A stretch of DNA of 43,246 nt from an uncultured Clostridia bacterium (lineage in GTDB: Bacteria; Bacillota; Clostridia; Oscillospirales; Oscillospiraceae). Below are positions 89-7,374 of this stretch, one piece after another (within the stretch, counting starts at the first letter, position 1; each line of letters begins with the position of its first letter). The stretch covers positions 1 to 43,246 of the forward strand of contig CAMCDX010000003.1 in the NCBI GenBank assembly GCA_945873695.1. The letters run 5' to 3'. The translations under genes and the position numbers were made by a program. The notes under the pieces are model-generated. The model had not been told where the DNA came from. It did not search any database and saw nothing but the letters and a program-made list of their open reading frames with translations.

Positions 89-1564
89 TTATAAGATAAT
101 GCAGATGAGGCCGCCGCTGCCCTCGTTGATGATGCGTGTCAGGGTCTCCTGAAGCTTTTTCCGGGCGTCCTCCGGCATTCGCTTCAGCTTGGTCTGAAGG
201 TCGTCGCTGACCAACTCATGGAAGCTGCGGCCGAAGATGTTGGACTGCCAGATCTTGCTGGTGTCCCCCTCGAACTCCTGGAGCAGGTAGTTCACCATGT
301 CCTCGGACTGCTTCTCGTTGCCCACGATGGGCGAGACGGCGGTCTCGATATCCGCCCGGATCATGTGGATGCTGGGCGCGCTGGCCTTCAGGCGGACGCC
401 GTACCGGCCACCCTGCTTCATGATCTCCGGCTCCTCCAGCTTCAGCTCATCGATACCGGGTACCACGATGCCATAGCCCGTCTCCCGGACGTCCTTCAGG
501 GCTCCGGCCACTTTGTCGTACTCCGCCTTTACTGCCGCCAGTTTTGTCAACAGACTCATCAGGTCGCCGTCGTCCGCCACCTCGAAGCCGGACTGCTCCG
601 ACAGTGTTCGGTAGAACAGCTCCCGGGGCAGGGTCAGCCGGGCGGAAGCCACACCGGTGCCCAGATCGATGGCGGTGATCTTCGCCTCGCTGATATCCTG
701 GCAGCCTCCCAGGGCGGCGATGACCCCTTCAATCTCCCGGATGTGGTGAAGCTGGGCGGTGCCCTGGCGGATGGCGTCAAACAGGCCGGCTTTGATGGGG
801 TGCTGGTCCGGCAGAGCGTCCACCCAGGGAGGCAGGAACAGATCCAGCTCCTGCATGGGGAACTCATAGAGGACGGCCTTCAAAATGGAGGCCACATCCT
901 CTTCCCCCAGCTCCAGACAGTTCACCGCCATGCAGTTCACCTCGTACCGGGAGGCAATGTCCCTGGCGATGGCTTCCGCCCGGTCACTTTTCGGATCCGC
1001 CGAATTCAGCAGGACGATGAAGGGCTTTCCCAGCTCCTGAAGCTCCCGGATGACCCGCTCCTCCGCCTCCAGGTAGTCCTCCCGGGGGATATCGGCGACG
1101 CTTCCGTCAGTGGTGATGACGATGCCGATGGTGGAGTGCTCGGCGATGACCTTCCGGGTGCCTACCTCCGCCGCCTCAGTCATGGGGATCTCATGGTCAA
1201 ACCAGGGGGTGGTGACCATCCGGGGGGCGTCATCCTCGTATTGGCCGATGGCCCCCTTCACCATATAGCCCACACAGTCGATGAGCCGCACGGAGAAAGC
1301 GGCGCCGCCCTCCAGCTGGATCTGGGCCGCCTCCTCGGGGACGAATTTGGGCTCCGCCGTCATAATGGTCCGGCCGGAGCCGCTCTGGGGCAGCTCATCC
1401 CGGGCCCGCTCTTTCCGATAGACGTTCTCAATGTTGGGGATCACCTGGGTCTCCATAAACCGTTTGATGAAGGTGGACTTGCCGGTCCGCACCGGCCCTA
1501 CCACACCGATATAGATGTCCCCGGCGGTGCGGGTCGCGATATTCTGATAGATACTGGTATTCAT
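89..1564 (-). CDS. spoIVA: SpoIVA, stage IV sporulation ATPase
   Basis: Spore-coat morphogenetic ATPase of the mother cell. In the family it binds SpoVM on the forespore outer membrane and polymerises with ATP hydrolysis to form the coat basement layer. The 491 residues match the B. subtilis protein (492). An N-terminal GTPase-like domain carries Walker A GPVRTGKS at residues 23-30, and the C-terminal part has the conserved region that anchors to the membrane through SpoVM. The frame runs 32 codons upstream, but ATG 1564 follows GGAGG and AAGGA motifs and matches the family N-terminus (MNTSIYQNIATRT). The gene is divergent from the ABC operon, with a possible SigE promoter upstream. Its partners spoVM and sipL lie about 3-5 kb away. 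Confidence 0.97.
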   Translation of the reverse strand: MNTSIYQNIATRTAGDIYIGVVGPVRTGKSTFIKRFMETQVIPNIENVYRKERARDELPQSGSGRTIMTAEPKFVPEEAAQIQLEGGAAFSVRLIDCVGYMVKGAIGQYEDDAPRMVTTPWFDHEIPMTEAAEVGTRKVIAEHSTIGIVITTDGSVADIPREDYLEAEERVIRELQELGKPFIVLLNSADPKSDRAEAIARDIASRYEVNCMAVNCLELGEEDVASILKAVLYEFPMQELDLFLPPWVDALPDQHPIKAGLFDAIRQGTAQLHHIREIEGVIAALGGCQDISEAKITAIDLGTGVASARLTLPRELFYRTLSEQSGFEVADDGDLMSLLTKLAAVKAEYDKVAGALKDVRETGYGIVVPGIDELKLEEPEIMKQGGRYGVRLKASAPSIHMIRADIETAVSPIVGNEKQSEDMVNYLLQEFEGDTSKIWQSNIFGRSFHELVSDDLQTKLKRMPEDARKKLQETLTRIINEGSGGLICIIL

Positions 1565-1601
1565 ATCATCCCGTCCTTTTTCCCTCCATGATTCTTGTTC
1601 C

Positions 1602-1631
1602 ACTCTATGTCCGGGCACCGCAAAGTATGAA
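1602..1631 (-). promoter_or_regulatory. Candidate SigE-type promoter of spoIVA
   Basis: On the minus strand, TTCATACT (1624-1631) is followed after 14 bases by CATAGAGT (1602-1609), near the SigE -10 consensus CATACAAT. Transcription would start about 30 bases before the spoIVA ATG. SigE control of spoIVA is established in other spore formers; both boxes here are imperfect, so the call is tentative. Confidence 0.35.
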
Positions 1632-1704
1632 CGGCCCGTCTTTCTTTGGGCAAAACCCACAAAATCCGATCTTTCCTTTCTCCGGAATTTGGCCGTTTCC
1701 CACC

Positions 1705-1733
1705 TTTACAGTATTAATTTAGCATGGTAAACT
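1705..1733 (+). promoter_or_regulatory. SigA promoter of the ABC transporter operon
   Basis: TTTACA (1705-1710), a 17-base spacer and TAAACT (1728-1733) form a housekeeping promoter about 50 bases before the binding-protein start. The leader contains a short stem, GAGCGG/CCGCTC at 1750-1766, just before the GGAGG ribosome binding site. Confidence 0.7.
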
Positions 1734-1782
1734 GGTAACGAACTAAAAGGAGCGGGACTTCCGCTCTGATTTGGAGGATGAA

Positions 1783-2616
1783 ATGATGAAAAACATGAAG
1801 AAGATGTTTGCTCTGCTGCTGACGCTGGCCATGGTGCTGGCCCTGGCCGCCTGCGGTGAAAAGGCTGAGGCCCCCGCCGCCAGTAAGGATCCCGCTCCCG
1901 CGGAGGAGCCCGCCAAAACCGTGGTCTACGCCGTGGAGGCCGGCAGCGCCGGCGAGGCGGTGGCCCAGGAGAACGGTTACGAGATCAACTCCGTCGCCGC
2001 TCAGGCCGACGCGCTGATGGAAGTCCAGGCCGGTACCTCTGATGCGGCCATCATCGACTCCCTGATGGCCGGCGCCATGGTGGGCGAAGGCACCAGCTAT
2101 CCCAATCTGAAGGTCACGGACCAGAAGCTGACCGAGGAGCTGTACGGCGTCGGCTGCCGCAAGGGTTCCGATCTGGCCTCTTACATCAACATGGTCTTCG
2201 GTGAGGCCTATACCGACGGCTCTCTGGAGGAGATCGCTACCACCTACGGCGTTCAGGAGGCTCTGCTGGAGCAGCCCGCTTCCGAGTTCACTGCCTCTGA
2301 GGCTGACAGCGATGTGGCCTACATCCAGGACAAGGGCACGCTGATCGTGGGTATCACCGATTTCGCGCCGATGGACTATCAGGATGCCAGCGGTGAGTGG
2401 ATCGGCTTCGACGCCGACATGGCCAAGAAGGTGGCTGACTCCCTGGGCGTGGAGATCGAGTTCATCGTCATCGACTGGGACAGCAAGATTATGGAGCTGG
2501 ACTCCAAGAACATCGACGTGGTGTGGAACGGCATGACTCTGACTGACGCCGTCCTGGAGGCCATGGAGTGCTCCAACGCTTACTGCAACAACGCTCAGGT
2601 GGTCGTGACCAAGTAA
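1783..2616 (+). CDS. Circularly permuted amino-acid-binding lipoprotein (ABC transporter)
   Basis: Extracytoplasmic binding protein of a polar amino-acid ABC importer, 277 residues. The signal peptide ends in lipobox LAAC with the lipidated Cys at residue 24, followed by an Ala/Pro/Glu-rich spacer. The two lobes are in reverse order. Residues about 46-163 are the second lobe of this family: AVEAGSAGE, DAAIIDS, YGVGCRKGSD and the C-terminal helix DGSLEEIATTYG. A linker (about 164-183) leads to residues 184-277, the first lobe: GTLIVGITDFAPMDY, GFDADMAKKVADSLG, IDVVWNGMTLTD, ending at the strand QVVVTK. The frame is intact and nothing like a missing lobe follows. The Arg that usually comes after the TxT motif and holds the ligand carboxylate is absent (TDAVLEAM). 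GGAGG lies 5 bases before ATG 1783; ATG 1786 is equally possible. The ligand is unknown. Confidence 0.88.
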   Translation: MMKNMKKMFALLLTLAMVLALAACGEKAEAPAASKDPAPAEEPAKTVVYAVEAGSAGEAVAQENGYEINSVAAQADALMEVQAGTSDAAIIDSLMAGAMVGEGTSYPNLKVTDQKLTEELYGVGCRKGSDLASYINMVFGEAYTDGSLEEIATTYGVQEALLEQPASEFTASEADSDVAYIQDKGTLIVGITDFAPMDYQDASGEWIGFDADMAKKVADSLGVEIEFIVIDWDSKIMELDSKNIDVVWNGMTLTDAVLEAMECSNAYCNNAQVVVTK

Positions 2617-2641: not shown

Positions 2642-2678
2642 CCCAAAGGCAGAGAGCGGTCCGCTCTCTGCCTTTGGG
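2642..2678 (+). terminator. Strong intercistronic hairpin between binding protein and permease
   Basis: Perfect 18-base arms (CCCAAAGGCAGAGAGCGG and its complement) surround one central base, followed by only four Ts. It lies inside the operon, so it probably acts as a partial terminator or 3' stabiliser that raises binding-protein output over the membrane genes, a common arrangement in ABC operons. Confidence 0.7.
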
Positions 2679-2713: not shown

Positions 2714-3436
2714 ATGTTTTGGACCGTAACCCTGTCGCTGCTCAAGGGTCTTGGCGCCGCTACGCAGCTCTTTTTCCTGACGCTTTTATTCGCCCTGCCC
2801 CTGGGCCTGGTTATCGCCTTTGGCTCCATGAACAAATGGCAGCCCTTCCGCTTTCTGCTCTATGGCCAGGAACATCCCGGTTCCGTGACCAGCTGGCTGG
2901 CCGGCTGGCGGCCCATCAGCTGGATCACCAACGTGGTGGTCTGGATCATCCGGGGCACACCGCTGATGCTCCAGCTCATCATCATCTTCTACGGCCCCGG
3001 CCTGTGGTTTGACAACAACATCTGGGCCTTCAGCAGCGGCCGGATGTTCGCCTGCACGCTGGCCTTCGTCATCAATTACGCCTGCTACTTCTCTGTCATT
3101 TACCGGGGCGGCATCGAGGGCGTCCCCGTGGGCCAGCGGGAGGCCGGTGAGGTCCTGGGCATGACCCGGCGGCAGATCTTTTTCAAGATCACGCTGCTGC
3201 AGATGGTCAAACGTGTGGTTCCCCCCATGTCCAATGAGATCATCACCCTGGTGAAGGACACCTCTCTGGCCCGAATCATCGCCATCACCGAGCTCATCAA
3301 GGCCGGCGAGGCCTTTATGAAATCCGACGGCATCACCTGGCCGCTGTTCTACACGGCGGTGTATTACCTGCTCTTTGTGGGTATCCTGACGATCCTGTTC
3401 AACCGGCTGGAGCGTAAGCTGAGCTATTTCCGTTAA
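2714..3436 (+). CDS. Amino-acid ABC transporter permease (HisM/GlnP family)
   Basis: Integral membrane subunit of the importer, 240 residues. A first membrane segment lies at about residues 5-37, followed by a hydrophilic stretch and the RGTPLMLQL motif typical of polar amino-acid permeases. The EAA loop that docks the ATPase (EAGEVLGMTRRQIFFKITL) lies at about residues 138-156, and a last membrane helix precedes the C-terminus. The loop before RGTPL (about residues 39-70) looks longer than in typical HisM proteins. A GGAGGAG ribosome binding site precedes ATG. The gene follows the binding-protein gene after the 2642-2678 hairpin and is 15 bases ahead of the ATPase. Confidence 0.93.
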   Translation: MFWTVTLSLLKGLGAATQLFFLTLLFALPLGLVIAFGSMNKWQPFRFLLYGQEHPGSVTSWLAGWRPISWITNVVVWIIRGTPLMLQLIIIFYGPGLWFDNNIWAFSSGRMFACTLAFVINYACYFSVIYRGGIEGVPVGQREAGEVLGMTRRQIFFKITLLQMVKRVVPPMSNEIITLVKDTSLARIIAITELIKAGEAFMKSDGITWPLFYTAVYYLLFVGILTILFNRLERKLSYFR

Positions 3437-3451: not shown

Positions 3452-4222
3452 ATGTCTATTTTGGAAGTCAGTCACATTGAAAAGCATTTCGGCGCCACGC
3501 AGGTCCTGACGGATATCAGCTTCTCCCTGGAAAAGGGACAGGCGCTCTCCATCATCGGCTCCTCCGGCAGCGGCAAGACCACCCTGCTGCGGTGCCTGAA
3601 TTTCCTGGAGACGCCGGACCGGGGCACCATCTCCGTCAACGGCACACCTATCTTCGACGCCGCCGACTCCACGACCAAAAGTGAGGCGGAGATCCGCCAA
3701 AAGCGGCTCCACTTCGGTCTGGTGTTCCAGAACTTCAACCTCTTCCCCCAGTACACAGCCCTCCAGAATGTGACGCTTGCCCGGGAGCTGCTGTCCAAGG
3801 AGCAGGGCGGCGGCGAGACGAAGGCGGAGATCGAGACGGCCGGCCGTGAGCTGCTGGCCCAGATGGGTCTGGCGGACCGGGCGGACCACTATCCCCACCA
3901 GTTGTCCGGCGGACAGCAGCAGCGGGTGGCCATCGCCCGGGCCCTGGCTCTGCAGCCGGATATTCTCTGCTTTGATGAGCCCACCTCCGCCCTGGACCCG
4001 GAGTTGACCGGCGAGGTGCTGAAGGTCATCCGCTCTCTGGCGGAGAAAAAGACCACCATGATCATCGTCACCCATGAGATGGCCTTTGCCAGGGATGTGG
4101 CGGACCAGGTGATCTTTATGGACGGCGGCGTCATCGTGGAGCAGGGCGACCCCCACCAGGTCATCGACCATCCCCGGGAGGAGCGGACGAAGCAGTTCCT
4201 CTCCCGGTACGCGGAAAACTGA
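3452..4222 (+). CDS. Amino-acid ABC transporter ATP-binding protein (GlnQ/HisP family)
   Basis: Nucleotide-binding subunit that powers the importer at the cytoplasmic face, 256 residues. Walker A (GSSGSGKTT) lies at about residues 36-44, the Q-loop at FQNFNLFPQ, the ABC signature at LSGGQQQR, Walker B at [12 protein letters not shown] and the switch His at VTHEM. These motifs and the length fit the polar amino-acid subfamily. GGGAGGG precedes ATG. It is the last gene of the three-gene operon and is followed 55 bases later by a clear terminator. Confidence 0.95.
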
Positions 4223-6237: not shown

Positions 6238-6393
6238 TCACCGCCGACAGCAGGCGCAGCCGCACGCGATCAACAGGAAGGCCACCAAAAACAGCAGCGC
6301 TCCCACCGGGAAGATCGCCGCGATCAGGATACCAGCCCCCAGCGCCACAGCGCAGACGCCCAGGATCCAACAGCCTCCTCCGCGATGAAACAT
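6238..6393 (-). CDS. Small hydrophobic membrane protein upstream of spoVM
   Basis: A 51-residue open frame that I do not recognise. After a short polar start (MFHRGGGC) it is hydrophobic throughout, probably two helices separated at the Phe-Pro near residues 28-29, and ends in a Cys-rich basic tail (ACGCACCRR). Its TGA stop overlaps the ribosome binding site of spoVM, which suggests coupled translation. The start has only an AAAGGGG motif 11 bases upstream, so the start is less certain. A role in sporulation is inferred only from its place with spoVM and sipL. Confidence 0.6.
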   Translation of the reverse strand: MFHRGGGCWILGVCAVALGAGILIAAIFPVGALLFLVAFLLIACGCACCRR

Positions 6394-6449
6394 CCGACCC
6401 ACGCCCCTTTCTCACTACCAGCATATACGACAGGGCTGTCCGGGGTGCG

Positions 6450-6481
6450 AAAAAGCCGCCGGACCTTTCGGCCCTGCGGCT
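6450..6481 (-). terminator. Intrinsic terminator after rsgA
   Basis: Minus-strand stem AGCCGC...GCGGCT with an inner GGCC-GAAA-GGTC hairpin, followed by TTTTT. It starts 6 bases after the rsgA stop and separates the long housekeeping run from the spoVM group. I see no clear promoter between it and 6393. Confidence 0.8.
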
Positions 6482-6486
6482 GGTGC

Positions 6487-7374
6487 TTATTTCTTTTTCT
6501 CCTGCCAATCCTGAAGGGGCTTCAGCTCCTCGTACAGCCGCAGGTAGCTGTCGTGGCGGCTCTTCTGGATGTCGCCCCGGCGGACGGCCTCCAGTACGGC
6601 GCAGCCCTTCTCCTTGGTATGACCGCACCCCACGAACCGGCACTGGTCCAGGTAGGGAGCAAACTCCCGGAAGGTCTCCGGCAGGCGGTGCTTCAGCGCC
6701 AGGTTCAGCTCGTCGGTCTCAAAGGAGCTGAAGCCTGGGGAATCCACCACGTCCGCTCCGCAGTCCAGGTGGTACAGCTCCACGTGCCGGGTGGTGTGGC
6801 GGCCACGGCCCAGGGCGTCGCTGACGGCGCCCACCTTGATCTGAAACTCCGGGTCCAGGGCGTTGAGGATGCTGGATTTTCCCACGCCGGAGTTACCTGT
6901 AAAGGCGGATAGCTTTCCACTAATCAGAGGCTTCAGTTCCTCGATACCCTCTCCTGTCTCAGCGCTGACCCGGAGGGTGGGGAACCCGGCGGCATGGTAA
7001 ATGCTGTAAAGCTCGTCGGCGCTGTCCAGGTCGCACTTGTTCAGCAGGACGATGACCTCACAGCCCTTCAGGGCGGCGATGGCCGCCACCCGGTCGATGA
7101 GATAGGGGTCCGTCCGGGGAATGGCCCCGGAGGCGATGACCACCAGCTGGTCGATATTGGCCACGGCGGGCCGGGCGAAAGCGTTCTTCCGGGGCAGGAT
7201 GGCCTCCACGAAGCCCTCACCGTTCCCCAACTCCCGGACCTCCACCCTGTCCCCTACCAGTGGGGACAGGCCATCCTTGCGGAACTTGCCCCGGGCCCGG
7301 CAGGTCAAAATCTCACTGCCGGTATCCACATAGTAAAAGCCACTGAGGGCCTTTTGGATGCGTCCCTCACTCAT
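6487..7374 (-). CDS. rsgA: Ribosome small subunit GTPase RsgA
   Basis: Circularly permuted GTPase that acts late in 30S maturation, 295 residues. The N-terminal OB fold comes first, then the permuted G motifs: G4 (LNKCD) precedes G1 (GNSGVGKSS) and G3 (DSPGF). A C-terminal zinc site (CRFVGCGH...GCAV) follows. ATG 7374 gives MSEGRIQKALSGFYYV, which lines up with the B. subtilis start; a TTG at 7383 with AGGA upstream is a possible alternative. The start overlaps the prkC end by 8 bases. Like its Bacillus counterpart it follows the kinase-phosphatase pair. Confidence 0.95.
   Translation of the reverse strand: MSEGRIQKALSGFYYVDTGSEILTCRARGKFRKDGLSPLVGDRVEVRELGNGEGFVEAILPRKNAFARPAVANIDQLVVIASGAIPRTDPYLIDRVAAIAALKGCEVIVLLNKCDLDSADELYSIYHAAGFPTLRVSAETGEGIEELKPLISGKLSAFTGNSGVGKSSILNALDPEFQIKVGAVSDALGRGRHTTRHVELYHLDCGADVVDSPGFSSFETDELNLALKHRLPETFREFAPYLDQCRFVGCGHTKEKGCAVLEAVRRGDIQKSRHDSYLRLYEELKPLQDWQEKKK

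Follow-up and report, generated by a model that had tools for sequence, protein, structure and literature searches.

We analyzed a stretch of 43,246 nucleotides (hereafter the window) from an uncultured Clostridia bacterium of the Oscillospiraceae, corresponding to positions 1-43,246 of contig CAMCDX010000003.1 in assembly GCA_945873695.1, and focused on the gene for a substrate-binding lipoprotein of the SBP_bac_3 family located upstream of the genes for an ATP-binding cassette (ABC) permease and ATPase. An earlier inspection of the letters alone (the sequence-only reading) had proposed that this protein is a natural circular permutation of a polar amino-acid-binding protein, encoded by an intact open reading frame (ORF) with a lipoprotein signal. 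The frame is indeed intact and encodes 277 residues, with a lipobox ending at Cys24.

The binding-protein locus

The genes and protein parts are as follows, with the basis of each assignment in brackets.

1783 to 2616, plus strand: gene for the circularly permuted SBP_bac_3 lipoprotein, 277 residues, stop included (ORF call, Pfam, phmmer, rotation scan)
1783 to 1854, plus strand: lipoprotein signal peptide and lipobox Cys, residues 1-24 (lipobox ends at Cys24)
1918 to 2136, plus strand: lobe II, residues 46-118, segments S2 and S3 (phmmer, segment profiles; boundaries from the structure model)
2137 to 2271, plus strand: segment S4, residues 119-163, comprising the second hinge crossing and the lobe I helices from the C-terminal side (model, segment profiles)
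2272 to 2322, plus strand: linker between the former C- and N-termini, residues 164-180, where a cut for rotation scores best (rotation scan)
2323 to 2613, plus strand: segment S1, residues 181-277, the N-terminal portion of lobe I as far as the first-crossing strand, at the end of the protein (Pfam, phmmer, segment profiles)
2714 to 3436, plus strand: permease of the ABC importer, BPD_transp_1, with a variant that tracks the binding protein's lobe order (Pfam)
3452 to 4222, plus strand: ABC ATPase, largely independent of the lobe order (Pfam, NCBIfam)
89 to 1564, minus strand: spoIVA, the divergent neighbor that marks the shared locus (Pfam)

Segment order of the binding protein

SBP_bac_3 (PF00497) is the sole Pfam match of the window protein at E-values up to 1. 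It scores 88.6 bits against a gathering cut-off of 26.4, from residues 188-277 only, which cover profile positions 2-91 of 132. In a phmmer search of solved structures, ArgBP of Thermotoga maritima (6svf) was matched twice, with the pieces in swapped order: residues 181-276 align to positions 6-102 of the 6svf chain (independent E-value 1.4e-15) and residues 46-148 to positions 120-219 (3.8e-7). For the rotation scan, every rotation of the mature protein was scored against a canonical-order profile (71 sequences, 229 columns). The best single match of the unrotated protein reached 166.4 bits over 99 of the 229 columns, whereas a cut in the linker, between LLEQ and PASEF, gave 286.8 bits over 227 columns. 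Since this cut lifts the score and four canonical controls hardly gain from rotation (at most 0.8 bits), we take the permutation to be real. The full SBP_bac_3 domain is present in the rotated order, with the segments following each other as S2-S3-S4-S1 (2-3-4-1); the canonical order 1-2-3-4 is absent. Lobe II comes first in the window protein and after lobe I in canonical relatives. The proposed swap of the lobes was therefore borne out, but the first half is not purely the second lobe, since besides lobe II it contains the C-terminal helices with which the chain returns to lobe I.

Structure prediction, which had been suggested as a check, yielded a confident model that supports the permuted fold (predicted local distance difference test score, pLDDT, 90.1; predicted template modelling score, pTM, 0.77). 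Foldseek, a sequential structure search, aligned lobe I alone well; because such an alignment keeps the chain order, the whole permuted fold cannot be tested by it at once. Structure matches spanning residues ∼44-277 at 3-4 Å came from many different type II-kind folds, presumably with lobes aligned on the wrong partner, and were not used as evidence. Among the PDB matches listed, none stood out as a permuted amino-acid-binding chain, which is not evidence of absence. The NCBIfam model for the substrate-binding protein of a cystine ABC transporter (NF008426, PRK11260) scored 74.9 bits against a cut-off of 312, but its profile has the canonical order and penalizes a permuted protein. Sequence, model, and conservation in other genomes (see below) support a natural circular permutation of the type II SBP_bac_3 fold, with the old termini joined and the new ends at the first hinge crossing, as the sequence-only reading had it.

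Two segment orders at one locus in the genus

A survey of 61 genomes of the genus gave matches in 55 at a cut-off of 1e-25. One full-length permuted gene is present in nine of these, the window genome and eight others, so that the search for homologues of the same lobe order was successful. The canonical arrangement, with lobe I and then lobe II in separate rows, was found in 40 genomes (row order checked in all 40), and six show lobe I only. None of the 61 genomes carries both a permuted and a canonical gene at this cut-off. Of the anticipated unpermuted paralogue, we found canonical sisters at the same locus in other genomes, but not both versions within one genome. Classification by segment profiles agrees with the survey: besides the window gene, 33 rows, in which several loci cover one gene, represent 19 distinct genes of the genus, eight permuted and 11 canonical. 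In a search of genome contigs, the best 80 of 572 related stretches all had the permuted order (80/80), a count that is no frequency because they were picked by best match. These contigs stem from other assemblies, including that of Oscillibacter sp. PC13 (L039; loci are given as L numbers), and some belong to the same genomes.

Permuted and canonical binding proteins of the genus occupy the same locus. Among 15 neighborhoods, all nine canonical ones are flanked by spoIVA and a LysM-type gene, as in the window. The six permuted ones include four with both neighbors, one at a contig end with spoIVA only, and one (L227) with neither. At the DNA level, the match between the window and the canonical locus L226 covers spoIVA and the stretch up to and including the signal peptide (window 89-1877, 85%). 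Window 2302-2604 (lobe I) then corresponds to L226 6872-7174 and window 1926-2177 (lobe II) to L226 7234-7482, and collinearity returns from window 2934 on, into the ATPase gene. L223 and L217 show the same pattern as L226, and the signal peptide region (1783-1854) is still collinear with all three. Between the same neighbors, lobe I of permuted and canonical versions is 66-79% identical.

Further segment orders in Clostridia

Besides the order of the window gene (form A, 2-3-4-1), two more permuted orders were found in Clostridia: form B (3-4-1-2), in which the break follows the first strand and helix of lobe II, and form C (4-1-2-3), in which it precedes the second hinge crossing. With these two additional break points, all four cyclic orders therefore exist. 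The set of 190 distinct genes with recognizable S1, S3, and S4 comprises 72 canonical, 91 form A, 23 form C, and four form B genes; it was gathered with permuted queries, so these counts are no frequencies. S2 is not visible in four of the 23 form C genes and one of the four form B genes; its threshold was only 2 bits, and weak S2 assignments draw on position in addition to score. Rotation was applied to 15 permuted proteins and brought the coverage to 221-228 of 229 columns in 4/4 of form A, 4/4 of form B, and 5/7 of form C.

A tree of 98 genes, thinned by identity (20 of the 91 form A, 54 of the 72 canonical, all four form B, and 20 of the 23 form C genes), requires at least 15 changes of order, compared with a mean of 39.7 for shuffled labels; counted singly, the orders change 5 (A), 7 (C), 3 (B), and 11 (canonical) times. 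A second tree of 60 genes (12 A, 27 canonical, 18 C, 3 B), cut after the first tree had been seen, left out seven: the long-branched L102, L162, L055, and L129_4601 and the distant canonical L082, L002, and L130. In this tree the order changes 12 times (shuffled mean 27.9). Changes were counted without direction, a return to the canonical order being a change as well. Forcing all form A genes of the 60 together lowered the log-likelihood by 371 (p 1e-70), and forcing all form C genes together lowered it by 303 (p 2e-42), both groups being named by segment order. For L138, L139, and L143, a group chosen after seeing the tree, the loss was 73 (p 7e-5). A single origin of form B was not rejected in the 60-gene tree. 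L143 (form A) and L161 (canonical) are sisters with 100/100 support and nearest to each other in both halves (85% and 81%), and the change of order between them is fairly recent. The window-type form A group lies inside a 100/100 clade with canonical sisters. As judged from these trees, lobe order in the subfamily has changed many times and has taken three permuted forms.

Two contigs with a form A gene also carry a divergent form C-type gene. In L055 it lies at 1448-2314, ∼1.7 kb upstream of the form A gene, and in L102 at 6343-7203, ∼1.6 kb downstream, with weak segment scores.

Permease and ATPase next to the binding protein

A permease gene directly follows the binding-protein gene in 90/91 form A, 4/4 form B, 17/23 form C, and 59/72 canonical cases (four of the 190 loci have less than 600 bases of room downstream). 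Within the genus, the permeases of six permuted neighborhoods are 71-90% identical to that of the window and those of nine canonical ones 56-60%, whereas the ATPases show 84-88% and 80-89% identity, respectively. We computed quick trees for 54 of 107 operons and counted the changes between form A and canonical labels against 500 shuffles, which gave a mean of about 16 for either protein. The permease tree needs only three changes, a value as low in none of the 500 shuffles. Its exceptions are L136, a canonical operon among form A, and L138, a form A operon outside. For the ATPase tree the count is 12, a value matched or undercut in 3-6 of 500 shuffles. The simplest reading would be that binding protein and permease form a cassette that was swapped, or has diverged, as a unit between fixed neighbors, and that the ATPase largely follows the species. 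In the genus of the window the two appear to behave as one exchangeable cassette, presumably moving together.

A permease change limited to one part of the protein was considered and rejected, as N- and C-terminal parts both need three changes. A stretch of 23 permease residues (49-71, window 2858-2926) is missing in the canonical operon L226 and present in L220. It was rejected as a partner of the permutation, because the 217-residue permease of L102, which adjoins a form A gene, lacks this stretch too. The best NCBIfam model for the ATPase is TcyN (320 bits, below the cut-off of 406); such a TcyN-like ATPase, from a cystine transporter model, may be a weak hint at the ligand. By eye, we noticed a perfect inverted repeat of 17 bases (window 2643-2677), with a single-base spacer, in the gap that separates the genes for binding protein and permease. 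It is absent from the list of the terminator scan and has a short separate match in L221 (36 columns, 89%). The repeat might control how much binding protein is made relative to permease.

Binding residues, selection, and function

The usual carboxylate-binding Arg is missing, as had been noted from the sequence: the window protein reads TLTDAV in place of TxTxxR, with Val at the position of Arg. The amine-binding Asp (Asp92) is kept, and it is present in all 91 form A genes. For both roles we assume that those known from HisJ-type structures apply. The Arg position is occupied by Val, Leu, or Ile in 36 of the 72 canonical genes, and Arg is kept in 6/91 form A and 18/23 form C genes. Loss of Arg as part of the permutation was rejected, since canonical genes lack it too and most form C genes keep it; it rather goes with the clade, and perhaps with the ligand. 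Another position, Cys125 (GVGCRKG, codon 2155-2157), is Cys in 85/91 form A but in only 3/72 canonical genes, which mostly have Phe there; in the structure model it lies in the strand of the second hinge crossing.

The ratio of nonsynonymous to synonymous substitutions (dN/dS) is 0.11-0.20 against five relatives, and the window gene is under purifying selection. Family, operon, selection, and co-variation with the permease argue that the protein serves a polar-amino-acid-type importer as its binding component. Low dN/dS and permease co-variation lend indirect support to the earlier view that the permuted protein probably works. With its segment order and conservation, confident predicted fold, operon, purifying selection, shared locus, and permease co-variation, we consider it very probable that the gene encodes a working, membrane-anchored permuted substrate-binding lipoprotein with permease and ATPase downstream.

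Proposed structure and origin

In the proposed structure, the short linker would connect the old termini on lobe I, and the new chain ends would lie at the first hinge crossing. The lobes would then be held together by one covalent crossing instead of two, and the lipid tether would lead into the hinge end of lobe II. Such a protein should close on its ligand like ordinary members of the family. It may have originated from a tandem duplication whose copies fused across the inner junction and lost their outer parts, a route that would leave the observed layout including the kept signal peptide and the linker. In L129 (3476-5569, minus strand), two canonical binding-protein genes lie in direct tandem before one permease and ATPase, showing that possible raw material for this route exists. 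The duplication with loss of outer halves that the sequence-only reading had put forward is plausible in view of these tandem copies, but an intermediate with repeated segments did not turn up (see below).

Alternative explanations

Several observations weigh against parts of this interpretation. No ORF of at least 100 residues had S1, S3, or S4 twice above 15 bits among 4289 ORFs from 231 loci. Most genomes are drafts, which makes the missing second copy uncertain, and the permuted L227 has neither neighbor within the 14 kb taken. A separate model of residues 44-168 is poor (pLDDT 75.4) and informative only for the lobe II part, as would be expected if its helices depend on the remainder of lobe I. 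For two form C proteins, L173 and L055, rotation adds no more than 0.9 bits. The ATPase tree, with its 12 changes, is itself somewhat sorted by lobe order. The gene trees rest on 210 columns and contain some long branches, and the window-type form A group lacks strong support, with 74/95 in the 60-gene tree (90/97 in the 98-gene tree). When the two halves were treed apart, each needed 14 order changes, with few well-supported forks.

With 138 contigs and 78% completeness, the window genome is a draft in which misassembly might have swapped the halves, an outcome named beforehand as one that would speak against a permutation. This was not borne out: the order recurs in eight further genomes of the genus and in 80 contigs from other assemblies, and the DNA on both sides of the gene is collinear with relatives. 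An artefact has practically no probability, since independent assemblies share the order. A chimera fused from two different binding proteins is very unlikely. It would fit the finding that S1 of the window gene is closest to the canonical L019 (81%; best permuted relative 78%) and the other half to permuted relatives (77%, compared with 68% for L019). However, joint trees of both parts place permuted and canonical sisters in one clade with 100/100 support, both parts of L143 have one and the same nearest canonical gene, L161 (85% and 81%), and the forms are scattered in the trees of either half, too, although few forks there are well supported.

We likewise regard it as very unlikely that a single ancient permutation was followed by returns to the canonical order. 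Undirected counting would register each return as a change and is compatible with such a history, but one form A clade and one form C clade were each rejected, there are three different break points, and each return would in itself be another permutation. The missing Arg might suggest a relic that is decaying or has no part in transport, but this is highly improbable for the permuted protein, because dN/dS is low, the binding Asp is found in every form A gene, the operon is kept in 90 of the 91, the permease variant is tied to the binding protein, and half of the canonical genes lack the Arg as well. We prefer repeated permutation of a working protein. Beyond this, we tentatively propose that lobe order is labile and has interconverted repeatedly, that the orders act like alleles at a fixed locus, each passed on together with a matching permease, and that the position of the chain ends, relative to lipid tether and hinge crossings, might itself be under selection, tuning the hinge or the match to the permease.

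Relation to known systems

Canonical SBP_bac_3 proteins (HisJ, GlnH, T. maritima ArgBP) are homologous to the window protein in all parts and share the lipoprotein anchor, the operon with permease and ATPase, and the Asp; the difference is the order 2-3-4-1 instead of 1-2-3-4, the Arg being absent as in half of the canonical genes. Tp0684 (TpMglB-2) of Treponema pallidum is described as a naturally permuted ABC binding lipoprotein of type I fold with a family in gut Gram-positives, for which Type Ic / Cluster Bc was proposed (PMC4990184). Natural permutation, the tethered ABC binding lipoprotein, and the occurrence in gut Gram-positives are common to both, whereas Tp0684 has a type I sugar-binding fold and another break point with an added crossing, the description gives one order, and identity across the permuted part is 13%. 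The window protein shares the circularly permuted binding-protein topology of Type Ic / Cluster Bc, with the break elsewhere, but falls outside its sequence family, its only Pfam match being SBP_bac_3. Nor does it match the sequence family of the glycine betaine-binding proteins of the OpuAC and ProX type, whose fold is presumably of the type II kind. Three of these (2b4l, 1r9l, 1sw1) were reported by CPSARST as circular permutants of each other with <24% identity (PMC2395249). They, too, are natural permutants among type II-kind binding proteins, but their remote relation was found by structure, whereas in the window family sister genes within one genus differ and three break points occur. 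Circularly permuted GTPases (YRG/YlqF, cpRAS; PMC2430557) are another case of a domain family with more than a single cyclic order in nature. Those concern a GTPase domain, and the opening of the abstract mentions no alternative orders at one locus.

A search of titles and abstract openings in the open-licence literature found, among the matches listed, no natural permutation of SBP_bac_3, in line with the sequence-only reading, which knew of none described for the subfamily, and no repeated permutation within one binding-protein family; this does not prove that none exists. The permutation mentioned in PMC9732360 concerns an engineered GFP. While natural permutation of binding proteins is known, its recurrence and the shared locus are surprising.

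Implications

Canonical-order family profiles match permuted proteins only in part, and annotation and ligand prediction are therefore unreliable for them. Natural permutation has mostly been recognized between remote homologues, where little of the path is readable. Matched natural pairs within one genus allow measuring the effect of permutation on folding, hinge motion, ligand affinity, and permease docking, and binding proteins that tolerate permutation may serve as biosensor scaffolds. A fold opened at three places, together with shared neighbors, makes the path of permutation in this family testable.
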